Below are positions 15,000 to 59,751 of a stretch of 64,000 bases of DNA, one piece after another. Source of the stretch: an uncultured Erysipelotrichaceae bacterium. Lineage in GTDB: Bacteria; Bacillota_I; Bacilli_A; Erysipelotrichales; Erysipelotrichaceae. The translations under genes and the position numbers were made by a program. How positions within the stretch are numbered: the stretch's first letter is position 1; each line of letters begins with the position of its first letter. A model generated the notes under the pieces. The model had not been told where the DNA came from. It did not search any database and worked only from the letters and a program-made list of their open reading frames with translations. The DNA lies in NCBI GenBank assembly GCA_902775735.1, contig CACYNH010000006.1, positions 1-64,000 on the forward strand, given 5' to 3'.

Positions 15000-15006
15000 T
15001 CCACAG

Positions 15007-15037
15007 GGGACCGGACAATTGTTCCGGTTCTTTTTTC
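15007..15037 (+). terminator. Terminator of two-component operon
   Basis: GGACCGGA pairs with TTCCGGTTC across CAATTG, followed by six Ts. Confidence 0.85.
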
Positions 15038-15044
15038 TGTGCCG

Positions 15045-15073
15045 TTGACATGAAACAGTCAAGTTAGTATAAT
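15045..15073 (+). promoter_or_regulatory. Consensus vegetative promoter of DUF3793-flavodoxin operon
   Basis: TTGACA at 15045-15050, exactly 17 bases, TATAAT at 15068-15073. Both boxes are perfect. The -10 box is the spacer of an inverted repeat. Confidence 0.9.
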
Positions 15074-15103
15074 CTAACTAAAGAAGTTAGGCAAAACTAA
15101 CTT
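15062..15103. promoter_or_regulatory. Two DtxR-like operators
   Basis: AGTTAG-N6-CTAACT occurs twice: 15062-15079, where N6 is the -10 box itself, and 15085-15102, extended to AAGTTAG/CTAACTT. Centres are 23 bp apart, about two helical turns. The half-site resembles the TTAG/CTAA arms of DtxR/IdeR-type iron or manganese repressor sites. Occupancy would block RNA polymerase. Confidence 0.65.
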
Positions 15104-15118
15104 TGTAAAGGAGGAAGA

Positions 15119-15692: not shown

Positions 15693-16112
15693 ATGAGCAA
15701 AACAGCAATCGTATTCTGGAGCGGCACAGGCAACACTGAGGCTATGGCCCAGACAGTCAGAGAAGGCATGGAAGCCAAAGGCGCGGAAGTCACCGTCATG
15801 GGACCTTCTGAATTCAACGCGGGTATGGTCAATGACTTTGACGCCATCGCGTTCGGATGCCCGGCAATGGGTGCCGAAGTTCTCGAGGAATCTGAATTTG
15901 AACCGATGTTCGCCAGCGTAGAATCCTCATTGGCAGGCAAGAAAGTCGGTCTGTTCGGCTCCTGGGGCTGGGGCAACGGCGCCTGGATGGAAGACTGGCA
16001 GGCCCGCACCGAGGCTGCCGGCGCTGACACAGTGCCTTATGCCATCTGCATGGAAGCTCCGGATGACGCGGCTCTGGCAGAATGCAGAGCGCTCGGCGAA
16101 GCACTGGCTTAA
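15693..16112 (+). CDS. Flavodoxin
   Basis: 139 residues, the usual short-chain flavodoxin size. The FMN phosphate loop is FWSGTGNTEAMA at about residues 9-20; the isoalloxazine-binding loops are FGCPAMGAE and FGSWGWGNGAWMEDW. It carries one or two electrons in the cytoplasm and commonly replaces ferredoxin under iron limitation. It follows DUF3793 directly and would share the putative iron-responsive promoter. The truncated pyruvate:ferredoxin oxidoreductase at the right edge is a plausible partner. Confidence 0.95.
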   Translation: MSKTAIVFWSGTGNTEAMAQTVREGMEAKGAEVTVMGPSEFNAGMVNDFDAIAFGCPAMGAEVLEESEFEPMFASVESSLAGKKVGLFGSWGWGNGAWMEDWQARTEAAGADTVPYAICMEAPDDAALAECRALGEALA

Positions 16113-16120
16113 AGAACTGA

Positions 16121-16151
16121 TGGAATCCGCAATCACAGCGGATTCCTTTTT
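16121..16151 (+). terminator. Terminator after flavodoxin
   Basis: GGAATCCGC pairs with GCGGATTCC, followed by a T-run. Confidence 0.85.
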
Positions 16152-17177: not shown

Positions 17178-20100
17178 ATGAAACATCTACATCAGCGGCT
17201 TCTGCCGCTCACCGCTTCACTGGCGCTGCTATGCGGCAGCGTCATTCCTCTTTCTGCCGATTCCGTCACATTCAGCGGAAACGGCATGACATACTTCCTG
17301 CAGAATGACGCCCTCAATGAGGGCTGGTCCATCCATGAAGGCATCTTCACAGTAAACGGCACCGCCGCCTATTGCATTGAGCCTCAGGAGACCGTCGTCA
17401 TCGGCCAGGATCTCTATCAGACCGGCTCCTGGGAAACCTACAGCGCCTACAGCAGCGAACTCAAAAACAGAATCCTTGAATATTCTTACTTTGGCTACGG
17501 CTACGGCGGCTTTACCGATATGGAATACTGGTACGCCACCCAGATCCTGATCTGGCAGGCGATCAATCCGGCTTTTTCCGCCACCCGCGTCCACCGCGAT
17601 CCCGTCTATGCCGGCGACGGCTTCAGAAGCCCGCAGGCGGTGGACATCACAGATTCCATCAATGACAAAAAGAATCAGATCGAAGAAACCGTCCGTCTTT
17701 ACCATGGCGGTCTTTCCCCCAAAATCACCGGCTCCAATGGCAATGCTATCAGTGAAGACACGCCCGTTTACGCCGGGGAAACAATCACACTGAGCGATGA
17801 TCATCTTTCCCACTGGCAGCTGTCCGAAAAGCCGGACGGCTTCAGCCTCAAAGGAAACACGCTTACAGTCAGCGCGAAGAAAGCCGGCACTTACCGCTGT
17901 TCCTTCCGTTTCAAAGGGACCGATCAGACCATCGAGTCAGCCCCGCTTGTGCTCAGGGCCAGGGACGGCTCCAGAATCCAGACCCTGATCATCCGCGGCC
18001 ATGCCGAAACAAAAACATATGATTTCAGCTTCACGTTCAAAGACTGCGGCATGAAGATCGCCAAAAAACTTCATAATCCCAATCATGCCGTCTATACATC
18101 CGCTTCCCTGGAAGGCGCCCGCTATGAACTGTTCAATGAAACCGAGAACACTTCCGCCGGATTCTTTGTCACCGGCGCTTCAGGCGTTTCCGGAATCCTC
18201 ACAGGACTCAATAAAGCCGACATCTACACATTAAGGGAAGTCAGCGCGCCCAAAGGCTGCGTGCTTGATGAAACACTCAGAAGGTTCAGACTTGACGAAC
18301 TGGAAGGAAAGGACGGGCTATACAGCCTGGATACACAGGATGAAATCATCCATGGCCGCATCGCGGTCCACAAGGTCATCACGTCCCGCACCTCCTCCGG
18401 TCCCATGCAGGATGAAGAAGGAGCAGGCTTCACCATTCTTCCGGATCTGTTCATTGAAAAATATGGCTCCTTTGAAGAGGCTCTGAAACACATCAGTGAA
18501 CTCAAAGAAGAAGAGTACGATGTAATCACGACAGACAAAAGCGGCAGGGCGGAAAGCCGTGATCTGATCTATGGAACCTACACCGTCACCCAGACCGCCG
18601 CCGCAAGCGATGATCTTGAATACTGCAAACCGTTCCATGTCAGCGTCGATGGTTCTTCCTTCATCAGCACCTTCGAGCTTTCCAATATCCAGAATGAATA
18701 TGAACTGAAGATCATCAAGACCGACGCCCTCACCGGGAAGAAAGCGGCCATGCATTCAGCTTCCTTCCAGCTTTTCGATGAAACCGGGAAACCTGTCACC
18801 ATGAAGATCGGCGCTTCCGTTTACGACACCTTCATGACCCGCTCAAGAGAATCCCACGCTTCACTCCCCGCCAATGTTTATCTGGAAAAAGCAGGGGAAG
18901 AAGGCACCGTCACACTGCCTTCACCGCTTTCACCCGGCTCCTATACCGTCAAAGAGGTCAGCGCCCCGTCCGGCTATCAGCTCAATAAAAAACCCCTGAC
19001 TGCCGAGATCAGCGCCGCCTCACTCGCTTCCGAAGCAGGACAGCTGATCACTGTCACAATGGCGGATCAAAGACGCTATGGGTCGGTTTCACTTCAAAAG
19101 ACCATTGCGGAAACCCAAGGCGATGCTTCCTTAATTGACCGCAAAGATCTCTCCGGTTTTGTCTTTGCCCTGATTGCGCGTGAAGATATCCTGGCGCCGG
19201 ACACCGGTGAAGTCATGATCAAAGCGGGCACTGAATTCAAACGTCTGACAACAGAGTCAGACGGCACACTCATCTTCAATGACATCCCCCTTGGCTCCTG
19301 GGTTTTAAAGGAGGTCAGCGCTAAAGCGGGGGTTCTGATCAATGAAGAAGAGATCCCGTTTGAAATCAATGATGAGAAAACAGAACATTCTTTCACAGTT
19401 GAAGATCAGCCGGTCCGCACCGTCTTCTCCAAAAAGCAGGCATCCGGTTCAGAAGAACTGCCCGGCGCGAAGCTCAGCGTCAGAAAGGCAGACGGCACCC
19501 TGATTGATGAGTGGATCTCAGGCGCTCAGCCTCATGTGATCGAAGGCCTGAACGCAGAAGAAACATACATCATGCGCGAAGAAATCACGCCGCGTGACAG
19601 TGAAGGAAACGACGAAGGCTATGTGCAGGCGGAGGAAATCCGCTTCACCCCTTCACAGGGCACCCTGGTAACAATGAAGGACCAGAGGGTGCGGGTGGTG
19701 AAAACAGACGAAAACGGCAAACCTCTTCCCGGCGCTTCGATGCAGGTCATCGATCAGGAAGGGACAGTCGTCGACAGCTGGATTACAGAAGAAACGCCCC
19801 ATTATGTCAGGGGACTGAAACAGTCGGAAACCTATCTGCTGCGGGAAACTGAAGCGCCGGCCGGATATTACCGGGCGGACGATATCACATTTGAAGTAAA
19901 GCCGCAGGATGGCGATCTGACCCTCACCATGACGGATACCCTGATCCGCTTACGCATCCGCAAAATTGACGAAAAGAGCGGAAAGGATCTTGCCGGGGTT
20001 GTCCTGACACTGTTTGAAATCGGCGCTGAAGAAGAAACGAAGATCGCCTCATGGGTGACTGACGGCAGTGTGATCGAAGCTGACGGTCTGCTGAAAGCAG

Positions 20101-20912
20101 GCACGTCTTACCGGCTTGAGGAAACAGCCGGAACCCAGGGCGTCTATACCGCCGCCGATCTGTTCTTTCAGACAGATGCGTTCGATCCGGGCGATCCGCA
20201 GCCGCTTATGATCATGATGGTTGACTCGCCGGTGGAAACCGCAGCCGCCAAAACCGATCCTGCCGGCAATTACCTGGCCGGTGCGCACCTCTGCCTGCGT
20301 GACAGCGATGGCAATGTGCTTTATGAATGGACAAGTTCCAAAGACGGTCCTGAAGATCTTTCCCCCTATGTAAAAGGCGGCGAACGGTACATCATCGAAG
20401 AGATCAGCGCCCCGGAAGGCTGCGCTCTTATGGACCCGCTGTCCTTTACCGTCAGCGGCACCGCTGAGCGCCATCAGCTCATCCACGCTGTCGACAGACC
20501 TATCAGGGTCCGCCTGCAGATCATCAAAACCGACGCCGCCGACGGAAAGCCGCTCAAAGACGCGCACTTCCAGATATTCTGCGCCGATGGTTCAAAGGCC
20601 GCTTCTCTTTCCGGAGAAAACGCGGAAGTGATCACCGGCGAAGACGGAAGGGCGGAAGTGACTCTGCCCTATGATCCGGAAGGATACTATGTCCTTGAGA
20701 CAAAAGCGCCGTCCGGCTACCGTCTCAACCGATCCCGCTTTGAAATCTCACCGCAGCCGGAAGTATCCGCGCCTTTAATCAGCGTGAAGGTGGAGGTGAG
20801 CGATGAAAAGAAGACAGTCGAAACAGGCCTTTACGGCAGCCGTGGCAGGCTTATGATCCTGCTGGCCGGGGTTCTTGCGTGCGCCGCGCTGCTGCTGCAC
20901 AGGCGGCACTGA
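17178..20912 (+). CDS. Cell-wall-anchored adhesin or pilin: thioester domain plus nine Cna-B/VaFE-like modules
   Basis: 1244 residues. Signal peptide (about 1-28, cleavage near LSADS), then a thioester domain: Cys in AYCIEPQ and Gln in TQILIWQAI are the expected cross-linked pair used by Gram-positive adhesins to bind hosts covalently. Nine beta-sandwich modules follow, several ending in KEVSAPSGY-like strands whose Glu forms isopeptide bonds; modules 5-8 look like VaFE repeats. The C-terminus has TVETG, a hydrophobic helix and RRH, a sorting signal of x-V-x-T-G type rather than LPxTG. That type is used by class B pilus sortases, and such a sortase gene overlaps its end by 34 bases. Host or polymer target unknown. 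Confidence 0.88.
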   Translation: MKHLHQRLLPLTASLALLCGSVIPLSADSVTFSGNGMTYFLQNDALNEGWSIHEGIFTVNGTAAYCIEPQETVVIGQDLYQTGSWETYSAYSSELKNRILEYSYFGYGYGGFTDMEYWYATQILIWQAINPAFSATRVHRDPVYAGDGFRSPQAVDITDSINDKKNQIEETVRLYHGGLSPKITGSNGNAISEDTPVYAGETITLSDDHLSHWQLSEKPDGFSLKGNTLTVSAKKAGTYRCSFRFKGTDQTIESAPLVLRARDGSRIQTLIIRGHAETKTYDFSFTFKDCGMKIAKKLHNPNHAVYTSASLEGARYELFNETENTSAGFFVTGASGVSGILTGLNKADIYTLREVSAPKGCVLDETLRRFRLDELEGKDGLYSLDTQDEIIHGRIAVHKVITSRTSSGPMQDEEGAGFTILPDLFIEKYGSFEEALKHISELKEEEYDVITTDKSGRAESRDLIYGTYTVTQTAAASDDLEYCKPFHVSVDGSSFISTFELSNIQNEYELKIIKTDALTGKKAAMHSASFQLFDETGKPVTMKIGASVYDTFMTRSRESHASLPANVYLEKAGEEGTVTLPSPLSPGSYTVKEVSAPSGYQLNKKPLTAEISAASLASEAGQLITVTMADQRRYGSVSLQKTIAETQGDASLIDRKDLSGFVFALIAREDILAPDTGEVMIKAGTEFKRLTTESDGTLIFNDIPLGSWVLKEVSAKAGVLINEEEIPFEINDEKTEHSFTVEDQPVRTVFSKKQASGSEELPGAKLSVRKADGTLIDEWISGAQPHVIEGLNAEETYIMREEITPRDSEGNDEGYVQAEEIRFTPSQGTLVTMKDQRVRVVKTDENGKPLPGASMQVIDQEGTVVDSWITEETPHYVRGLKQSETYLLRETEAPAGYYRADDITFEVKPQDGDLTLTMTDTLIRLRIRKIDEKSGKDLAGVVLTLFEIGAEEETKIASWVTDGSVIEADGLLKAGTSYRLEETAGTQGVYTAADLFFQTDAFDPGDPQPLMIMMVDSPVETAAAKTDPAGNYLAGAHLCLRDSDGNVLYEWTSSKDGPEDLSPYVKGGERYIIEEISAPEGCALMDPLSFTVSGTAERHQLIHAVDRPIRVRLQIIKTDAADGKPLKDAHFQIFCADGSKAASLSGENAEVITGEDGRAEVTLPYDPEGYYVLETKAPSGYRLNRSRFEISPQPEVSAPLISVKVEVSDEKKTVETGLYGSRGRLMILLAGVLACAALLLHRRH

Positions 20913-21601
20913 TTCTTTCCGCCTCGCTGCTGTTTGTCTCAGGCGTGCAGAAAGAAGCCGGGGATTACAGGCAGGCGCAGAAACAGAGGCAGGTTCATGA
21001 ACAGACGCGTCTTTTCCTCCATGAAGAAGAGGGAAGGGTAAGTCCTGATTTCGCTTCACTGAAGGAAATCAATCCTGAATTTGTCTGCTGGCTGTCTTTT
21101 GAAAGCGGGCTGATCTCACTGCCATGCGTTCAGCACAGCGACAACAGCCGGTGGCTGACCCATCTTTTTGACGGCACTCCGGGCGATACCGGCACATTGT
21201 TTTTCGACACCCAGTGTGAAAGAGAGGATGAGGTCAGGATCCTCTATGGTCATTCCGTTTTTTACGAACCGTCTTTGATGTTCACGCCACTGCATACGCT
21301 AAAGACGGAAGAAGCTTTCTTCGCAAACCGGAAGTTCTCGCTTCTTTACGAGGATGAATCCGAAGAATATGAAATCTTTGCCGTAGCTGTTGTGGATGAA
21401 AGAGATGAAAGCTTTCCCATAAGATTCCGCGGCTTTGTCACAGAGGAAGAGCACTCAGGATGGCTGGGGCGTCTGAAATCATCGGCGCTTATTTACGATG
21501 AGGATCCGCCGGAAGACAGGAAACTGCTCATTCTGCAGACGTGCGAAGAACAGGAGTCGGCACTGCGGTTATGCGTCTTTGCGTATAATCTGAGAGCCTG
21601 A
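20879..21601 (+). CDS. Class B sortase
   Basis: 240 residues. N-terminal membrane anchor (about 5-23), then the sortase beta barrel with His125 in LYGHSVF, Cys222 in ILQTCEE and Arg230 in ALRLCVF, the full catalytic triad with class B spacing. It cleaves between Thr and Gly of the sorting motif and attaches the protein to peptidoglycan or polymerises it. The start is GTG with little Shine-Dalgarno and overlaps the substrate gene by 34 bases, so translation is probably coupled. Its pairing with a single substrate carrying TVETG suggests a dedicated one-substrate enzyme. Confidence 0.9.
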   Translation: MRRAAAAQAALILSASLLFVSGVQKEAGDYRQAQKQRQVHEQTRLFLHEEEGRVSPDFASLKEINPEFVCWLSFESGLISLPCVQHSDNSRWLTHLFDGTPGDTGTLFFDTQCEREDEVRILYGHSVFYEPSLMFTPLHTLKTEEAFFANRKFSLLYEDESEEYEIFAVAVVDERDESFPIRFRGFVTEEEHSGWLGRLKSSALIYDEDPPEDRKLLILQTCEEQESALRLCVFAYNLRA

Positions 21602-58236: not shown

Positions 58237-58468
58237 GTATACAAATTCGATGAGCGGGAAGCGCTGCTGAAGGACTGTGAAAGAAGCGACAATGGTATGG
58301 TGAAAGCATTGGGCAGCCACAACAGCCGGACACCCGTGAGAAGACCTCCTGAAATGACAGTAGGGAGGTACGTGATCCGCGTTAAGGAATCAAGCGTACA
58401 GCTGATTCAGCTGTAAAACAAGGTGGTACCGCGCATAGATGCGTCCTTGAGAAAGGATGCTTTTTTTA
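58237..58468 (+). promoter_or_regulatory. T-box riboswitch controlling hisS-aspS
   Basis: About 230 nt. The T-box AAGGTGGTACCGCG is at 58420-58433 and can form the antiterminator. Stem I base: GCGGG (58254-58258) with CCCGT (58333-58337), next helix GCTG/CAGC. The specifier loop strand CGGACA holds GAC (58329-58331, Asp) followed by the usual purine A, and overlaps CAC (58331-58333, His). Terminator GCGTCCTT-GAGA-AAGGATGC plus Ts at 58441-58468. Uncharged tRNA binding allows read-through. Confidence 0.92.
58441..58468 (+). terminator. Conditional terminator of the T-box
   Basis: GCGTCCTT, GAGA, AAGGATGC (one G-U pair) and seven Ts, alternative to the antiterminator. Confidence 0.9.
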
Positions 58469-58485: not shown

Positions 58486-59751
58486 ATGAGCTATCAGACA
58501 CCCCGCGGAACCTACGACATCCTGCCGTCAGATATCAACAAATGGCATGATGTGGAAAGGGTCATCCGGGAAAAAACATCACTTTACCGCTACCGTGAAA
58601 TCAGAACACCGTATTTTGAGGATACATCCGTTTTCAAACGGGAAAACGACTCCTCCGACATGGTCAACAAGGAAATGTACACCTTCACCATGGGCTCCGA
58701 GTCCTACACGCTCAGACCCGAAGGCACAGCCGGCGTCATCCGCGCCTTTGACCAGCACAAGCTTTACGGCTCCATGGAAATGCCGGCCAGATTCTATTAC
58801 GTCGGCGCCATGTTCCGTCACGAAAGACCGCAGAAGGGCAGACAGCGCCAGTTCACCCAGTTCGGTGTGGAAAATATCGGCGCCAAGACGCCCGAGATCG
58901 ACGCTGAGACAATCGCCCTTGGCTATGACATCGTCAAGGCGATGGGAATTTCCTCAATCAAGGTTTTAATCAACACACTGGGCGACGATGAATCCAGAGC
59001 CGCCTACCGTGAGGCGCTCAAAAAGCACTTCGCACCGCACCTGGATGATCTGTGCGGTGACTGCAAGAGGCGCTATGAACAGAACCCGCTGCGCATTCTC
59101 GACTGCAAGGTCGACCATGACAAGGAATGCATGGCAAGCGCCCCGAAGCTTTCCGAATACCTCAATGAGGAATCCAGAAACTATTTCAGTCAGGTTCTTG
59201 CCTGTCTGGACGCCCTGGGCATTCCCTATGAAATCGACGAAAGGCTCGTCAGAGGCCTTGACTACTACACCCACACCGTCTTTGAAGTTGTTTCCACAAG
59301 ACCTGATTCAGGCGCCCAGGCGACCATCTTCGCCGGCGGCAGATACGATCACTTCGTGGAATACTACGGCGGACCGGAAATGAGCGGCATCGGCTTTGCG
59401 ATCGGTCTGGAAAGACTGATCTCCCTTGCGACCGAGGAAGGGTACCCGTTCCCTGAAGAGAATCAGTGCGACGTCTATGTCATCGGCCTTGGCAATGTGG
59501 GCGACAGTGTTCTTAAAACACTCGCGATGCTCAGAAACGCGGGCTACCGGGCGGAAGGCAATCTTGTCAAAAGATCCCTCAAGGCGCAATTCAAGAGCGC
59601 CGACAGGGCAATGGCGAAGTACATCGTCATCCTTGGGGAGGATGAAGTGGCTGCCGGCACGCTGAATGTCAAAAACGCGGCTGACAAGACACAGCTGACC
59701 CTGAAGAACGAAGAGCTTCTCGGACAGCTTGAAAAATGGGAGGAAGAATAA
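58486..59751 (+). CDS. hisS: Histidyl-tRNA synthetase
   Basis: 421 residues, class II enzyme. N-terminal TPRGTYDILP, motif 2 region MFRHERPQKGRQRQF, the histidine-binding RGLDYYTHTVFE, motif 3 GIGFAIGLERL, and a C-terminal anticodon-binding domain (about 325-421). GGAGGAG precedes the ATG. Under T-box control together with aspS. Confidence 0.97.
   Translation: MSYQTPRGTYDILPSDINKWHDVERVIREKTSLYRYREIRTPYFEDTSVFKRENDSSDMVNKEMYTFTMGSESYTLRPEGTAGVIRAFDQHKLYGSMEMPARFYYVGAMFRHERPQKGRQRQFTQFGVENIGAKTPEIDAETIALGYDIVKAMGISSIKVLINTLGDDESRAAYREALKKHFAPHLDDLCGDCKRRYEQNPLRILDCKVDHDKECMASAPKLSEYLNEESRNYFSQVLACLDALGIPYEIDERLVRGLDYYTHTVFEVVSTRPDSGAQATIFAGGRYDHFVEYYGGPEMSGIGFAIGLERLISLATEEGYPFPEENQCDVYVIGLGNVGDSVLKTLAMLRNAGYRAEGNLVKRSLKAQFKSADRAMAKYIVILGEDEVAAGTLNVKNAADKTQLTLKNEELLGQLEKWEEE

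Follow-up and report, generated by a model that had tools for sequence, protein, structure and literature searches.

The element at positions 15045–15102 of the window, which is the whole 64-kb stretch of DNA that was analysed, is very probably a double iron box of a short DtxR-family repressor without an SH3 domain, laid over the core promoter of a DUF3793-flavodoxin operon, and low iron would release transcription from it. It is proposed that, when iron is plentiful, a dimer loaded with Fe2+ would bind RGTTAG-Y-N4-R-CTAACY, a single-dimer site of the form TTAG-N6-CTAA. Bound at O1 it would cover the –10 box and at O2 the first transcribed bases, so that RNA polymerase would be kept off the consensus promoter. 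With falling iron the repressor would leave, and flavodoxin and the DUF3793 protein would be made strongly, the flavodoxin replacing ferredoxin under low iron. The genes feoAAB, those for FeoB-associated proteins and gpmA, which encodes a metal-independent phosphoglycerate mutase, would be derepressed together with the DUF3793-flavodoxin genes. The features of the region are collected in Table 1.

Table 1. Promoter, operators and genes of the DUF3793-flavodoxin region (positions in the window)
Feature	Position	Strand	Basis
Intrinsic-terminator-like hairpin of preceding histidine kinase gene	15005..15033	+	Consensus scan
–35 box TTGACA	15045..15050	+	Sequence and promoter scan
Operator O1, AGTTAG-TATAAT-CTAACT	15062..15079	+	Sequence; conserved in relatives
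–10 box TATAAT	15068..15073	+	Sequence; scan 12/12 matches, spacer 17
Operator O2, AGTTAG-GCAAAA-CTAACT	15085..15102	+	Sequence
Shine-Dalgarno AAAGGAGG	15107..15114	+	Sequence
DUF3793 protein, 185 aa	15119..15676	+	PF12672, E 2.2e-47
Short-chain flavodoxin, 139 aa	15693..16112	+	PF00258; TIGR01753 above cut-off
Intrinsic-terminator-like hairpin with T-run, operon end	16122..16146	+	Consensus scan

A direct reading gave TTGACA-N17-TATAAT, the sigma-70 consensus, at 15045–15073, ahead of the DUF3793-flavodoxin operon. The exact promoter, the AGTTAG-N6-CTAACT palindrome around the –10 box and its second copy 23 bp on were as the initial annotation had described them; the sequence of the element was also given correctly there, but it ends at 15102, one base before the 15103 then assigned. 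The N6 of O1 is exactly the –10 hexamer, and O1 ends just before, and O2 begins just after, a start point predicted at ~15080. At up to two mismatches the exact boxes O1 and O2 were the only matches in the window, with 0.54 matches obtained on average from shuffled sequence. Among 300 simulated windows of matching dinucleotide content the exact box never occurred, and a perfect promoter occurred 0.007 times per window. The placement of both sites on the same helical face, as annotated initially, held only roughly, because the centre-to-centre distance of 23 bp corresponds to 2.19 turns at 10.5 bp, about 70 degrees off. Helical phasing of paired boxes was weak (R 0.28 at 10.5 bp, with a nominal p of 0.005 uncorrected for relatedness), and tight repression with joint use of one face by O1 and O2 may be expected from the arrangement. 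The upstream terminator-like hairpin isolates the promoter from the histidine kinase gene; since a second such hairpin follows position 16112, DUF3793 and flavodoxin most likely form a two-gene operon, the terminator scan (2 found versus 1.6 expected) being weak evidence by itself.

The box was conserved upstream of DUF3793 far beyond the window. Among 120 relatives, 58 carried DUF3793, and in all 30 loci that were read a box was present within 850 bp upstream, in 23 of them within ~100 bp. A second set, the named loci, was made up of the 80 best among 589 DUF3793 loci from a scan of genome contigs, titled mostly Clostridia and in a few cases only Bacillota or bacterium. In these best 80 of 589, a box was found within 400 bp upstream in 72 loci (reversed control 1/80), GTTAG-N6-CTAAC ranked first in a de novo search for 5-bp dyads (67/80), and a flavodoxin gene lay within 3 kb of DUF3793 in 50. 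Over the window, the 30 relatives and the best 80 of 589, a box was present in 103 of 111 DUF3793 regions, and it overlapped the predicted promoter in 72 of the 90 regions with a good promoter, against 17.9 expected by circular shift. The consensus of 183 sites was RGTTAG-Y-N4-R-CTAACY, with positions outside the 18-bp core hardly conserved. There is next to no chance that the palindromes are incidental AT-rich repeats without a regulatory role: loose genome-wide counts in the relatives were not above control, which would fit such repeats, whereas the position-specific conservation was far above control, and the boxes at the mostly clostridial loci of the named set make incidental repeats very unlikely. 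With up to one mismatch, 1044 boxes were counted over the 120 relatives versus 1290 for the reversed control, the forward count being higher in 51 relatives and lower in 65; such loose counts alone prove little and were uninformative in the relatives.

It was found that the same box was linked to feo genes. A box was present within 1.1 kb upstream in 26 of the 40 feoB loci fetched (control 5/40) and absent from the other 14; many genomes carried two feoB genes, and the second one of relative G000 (L227) had no box. In related families, boxes were located between dtxR and the feoAB or DUF3793 genes. Among 20 dtxR loci of the related family, picked by match rank and blind to sites, 6 had boxes no more than 210 bp ahead of dtxR, which was often divergent from feoAB. 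No box was observed within ~1.5 kb of dtxR in the 29 own-genus loci read (0/29), and autoregulation is therefore not general. In five named loci (L249, L270, L291, L292 and L327, among the best 80 of 589), a full short dtxR adjoined DUF3793 with boxes between them, and L249 and L292 also adjoined feo genes.

The sites tracked the short-DtxR type across a phylum sample of 195 genomes, in which a strict site pattern was counted and a match of E 1e-28 or better was regarded as a strong short-DtxR match. The 50 genomes with such a match contained 133 strict sites versus 34 for the control, and the 145 without it 39 versus 80; at least two strict sites were present in 30/50 and 6/145 genomes, respectively, a comparison between related, non-independent genomes for which the computed p-value overstates the association. 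Within the 120 relatives the presence or absence of dtxR was not decisive: 10 had no dtxR match (7 in the own genus, mostly incomplete), some of which kept boxes, and in relative G055 (96% complete) boxes were present while no DtxR or Fur protein was detected.

The initial annotation had expected further AGTTAG-N6-CTAACT sites at feo or metal transporter genes, and a search of the source genome (2.26 Mb, 86% complete) found them at feoA-feoA-feoB, FeoB_associated and ZIP genes. Exact boxes occurred at four places, two of them O1 and O2, and sites with up to one mismatch numbered 17, compared with 3 when the pattern was reversed. With two mismatches allowed, the control was higher (30 sites versus 71 reversed), and therefore mainly the better sites were interpreted. 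Two boxes lay over the TTGACA-N17-TAAACT promoter of feoA-feoA-feoB, another preceded a methyltransferase-ZIP operon, and another a FeoB_associated gene scoring 24.7 bits, slightly under the Pfam cut-off of 27; a second FeoB_associated gene (38.2 bits) stood behind a two-mismatch site. Two boxes (L007:6125-6163) were also located before gpmA, divergent from gpmI, and this pair is possibly a metal-sparing swap of phosphoglycerate mutases. Other genes linked to boxes were ABC exporter pairs, a TetR gene, ATC_hydrolase genes, a methyltransferase gene and one for a secreted repeat protein, and the exact box at C9:2744 (L006:2744-2761) lay in a gap without a clear downstream gene. At L026:3291-5808 and L027:3156-4593, boxes stood ahead of ATC_hydrolase genes, an ABC exporter pair and a TetR gene, which suggests an iron-linked export or salvage cluster. 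At L034:2238-5307, a two-mismatch box was followed by genes for DUF6110, a P-type metal ATPase and an MntP-like protein; iron repression of an exporter is odd.

One protein with a DtxR metal-binding domain, of 135 aa, was encoded in the source genome, and both its Fe_dep_repress winged helix (51.5 bits) and its Fe_dep_repr_C domain (54.6 bits) exceeded their cut-offs of 26 and 27, confirming the DtxR-family regulator that had been anticipated. The match ended at residue 127 of 135 with no further domain, so the SH3 domain is lacking. When aligned to MntR, the regulator retained Asp at position 8 and had Cys in place of Glu99. Asp was present in all 29 own-genus rows, where it falls at the position of a Met in DtxR, as in MntR, and 27 of them had Cys where DtxR has Cys102, the pattern leaving two without a call. 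The 24 rows of the related family and G000 contained 20 Met and 4 Asp, one Asp row being that of G000, and Cys102 was matched in 24/24; Clostridia regulators had Met in 4/4 and Cys in 4/4. Met and Cys form the iron-selective ligand pair of DtxR/IdeR, according to the accessible text of a review (PMC10317159), and the own regulator carries Asp and Cys rather than Met10 and Cys102.

These ligands bear on the metal. If the same regulator and operators sensed manganese, as in MntR, feo and flavodoxin would follow manganese status, which is unlikely. Like the MntR of Bacillus and Escherichia in length, domain content and the Asp at D8, with MntR chains as the closest solved structures and with a ZIP transporter, an MntP-like gene and gpmA near sites, the regulator nevertheless differs from it in the Cys for Glu99 and in having feo and flavodoxin as targets. 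It also scored far under the cut-offs of the MntR equivalog models (84.4 of 153 and 81.5 of 138), and the related family, mostly with Met and Cys like DtxR, uses the same box. Iron rather than manganese would thus be the metal, sensed in the own genus by a protein with hybrid Asp/Cys ligands. MntR proper was rejected as the regulator on the ligands (Cys for Glu99) and the model scores.

Two other binders of the box were considered. Binding by a member of the Fur family, which usually senses iron in low-GC Gram-positives, is highly improbable. The box motif is unlike the Fur box, and the one Fur-family protein of the source genome, which might otherwise be a candidate, adjoins a ZnuA-family binding protein and an ABC ATPase; it reached none of the NCBIfam equivalog cut-offs and was taken as Zur-like by context. 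Of the 120 relatives, 14 yielded no Fur-family protein, and among these G060 (100% complete), G035 (98%) and G016 (95%) keep boxes at DUF3793 or feo (L110, L125 and L216); Fur as the binder was rejected on the basis of such relatives. Binding by a paralogous DtxR-like winged helix, either a 76-aa protein encoded after feoB or longer cousins beside DUF3793, is extremely improbable: although the short form matches PF01325 over the cut-off and weak DtxR matches lie just upstream of DUF3793 in three relatives, no metal-binding or dimerisation domain was matched in the 76-aa form, and it is the full-length dtxR that adjoins boxes in the related family and five Clostridia. The three weakly DtxR-like genes stand behind the boxes (G006:C6:6932-7135, G020:C66:16536-16751 and G061:C18:4425-4640). 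The 76-aa protein (L024:217-447, – strand) is a stand-alone DtxR-type winged helix with PF01325 only that ends the feo operon of the source genome, and it may be a FeoC-like or anti-repressor protein.

The short DtxR-family regulator was compared with known members of the family. EqbA of Streptococcus equi ICESe2 was described, in the accessible text of its report, as a DtxR-like repressor without the SH3-like fold and with Cys at the DtxR Cys102 position, as here; its operator upstream of eqbB has the centre GTTAG-ATGTAT-CTAAC, and its core GTTAG-N6-CTAAC is the core of the present box (PMC3672683). EqbA bound DNA with Fe2+ and Zn2+, less with Mn2+, and was regarded by its authors as a likely new subclass (PMC3672683). 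The regulator shares the lacking SH3 domain, the Cys at 102 and the operator core with that subclass, EqbA having been compared through its published description. In contrast, EqbA has Asn at the residue that is Asp in the own genus and mostly Met in the related family, and acts through one 36-bp palindrome on siderophore genes of a mobile element (PMC3672683), whereas the present boxes are of 18 bp, often paired, and located at feo and flavodoxin genes. With IdeR/DtxR of Actinobacteria the regulator has the two-domain core and the metal-binding Cys in common, and the TTAG-N6-CTAA spacing of the IdeR single-dimer site and its position over the –10 box or start point also agree (PMC10317159, accessible text). 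The IdeR/DtxR proteins differ by a C-terminal SH3-like domain, and their box reads TTAGG..CCTAA, while the present one has RG outside and Y/R inside the arms (PMC10317159); the full 19-bp IdeR/DtxR iron box TTAGGTTAGSCTAACCTAA was not matched, its double site not being used here. By these comparisons the regulator would act in the manner of IdeR; it fits the EqbA-like subclass and is neither a true IdeR nor a true MntR. The DtxR-type sensor suggested initially was therefore supported by sites at metal genes, an encoded regulator, the adjacency to dtxR in relatives and the EqbA core. A literature search for the box or regulon, in which few subscription papers and no regulon databases were covered, returned nothing beyond EqbA.

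The partner gene was characterised by structure models, as a literature search for DUF3793 by name returned no relevant paper. AlphaFold models of two DUF3793 homologues were confident (pLDDT 88.9 and 90.2). Foldseek gave no match at E 0.001 or better with these models, and the sequence gave nothing useful against solved structures. A second fold comparison ranked 2guk_A first for both models (Z 6.2 and 6.4; 3.7 Å over 103 and 104 of 111 residues), both values being lower than the Z of 8 under which the tool cautions that the arrangement may be a common one. The modelled likeness is below the level proving a shared fold. The protein 2guk_A is a P. gingivalis protein of unknown function, which we take to be PG1857, a DUF2023 protein; a literature search for the structure entry returned nothing helpful. 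When 44 DUF3793 proteins were compared with Pfam at E up to 10, PF09633 (DUF2023) was absent from the 25 families listed out of 28, and DUF2023 and DUF3793 are distinct Pfam families between which no sequence match was detected. The Bacteroidetes DUF2023-flavodoxin operon resembles the present one in that a gene of unknown function adjoins flavodoxin (PMC10434189). It was strongly induced in low iron, 48- and 133-fold for P. gingivalis PG1857 and flavodoxin PG1858 and 598- and 326-fold for the B. thetaiotaomicron pair, under a regulator unnamed in the accessible text (PMC10434189), whereas induction of the DUF3793 operon is a prediction.

More tentatively, a large part of the gut Bacillota, comprising this order and many Clostridia, might use a Fur-free iron-starvation response, in which one SH3-less DtxR protein acts through an iron box at feo, often at its own gene, and at DUF3793-flavodoxin, and DUF3793 might be the Bacillota counterpart of DUF2023 and a flavodoxin partner. 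What is new is the breadth, in that a single box and a single type of regulator occur with feo and DUF3793-flavodoxin throughout this order and in many Clostridia. The review assigned iron to Fur and manganese to DtxR proteins in low-GC Gram-positives, in its accessible text (PMC10317159); if the proposal is true, gut anaerobes of many kinds depart from this rule, their iron regulons can be predicted by searching for a single 18-bp box, and two phyla would share the same two-gene response under unrelated control. DUF3793 is thereby given a regulatory role and can be tested as a flavodoxin partner in iron starvation, and a metal-sparing swap is predicted, with the metal-independent gpmA derepressed beside gpmI.

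Elsewhere in the window, positions 17178–21601 contain the gene for a SpaA-repeat surface protein that carries a thioester domain and, after it, a sortase-like gene. Rfam detected nothing in the window apart from a T-box leader and a tRNA; the T-box leader (RF00230, 97.8 bits) is located at 58241–58451, upstream of the ORF at 58486.
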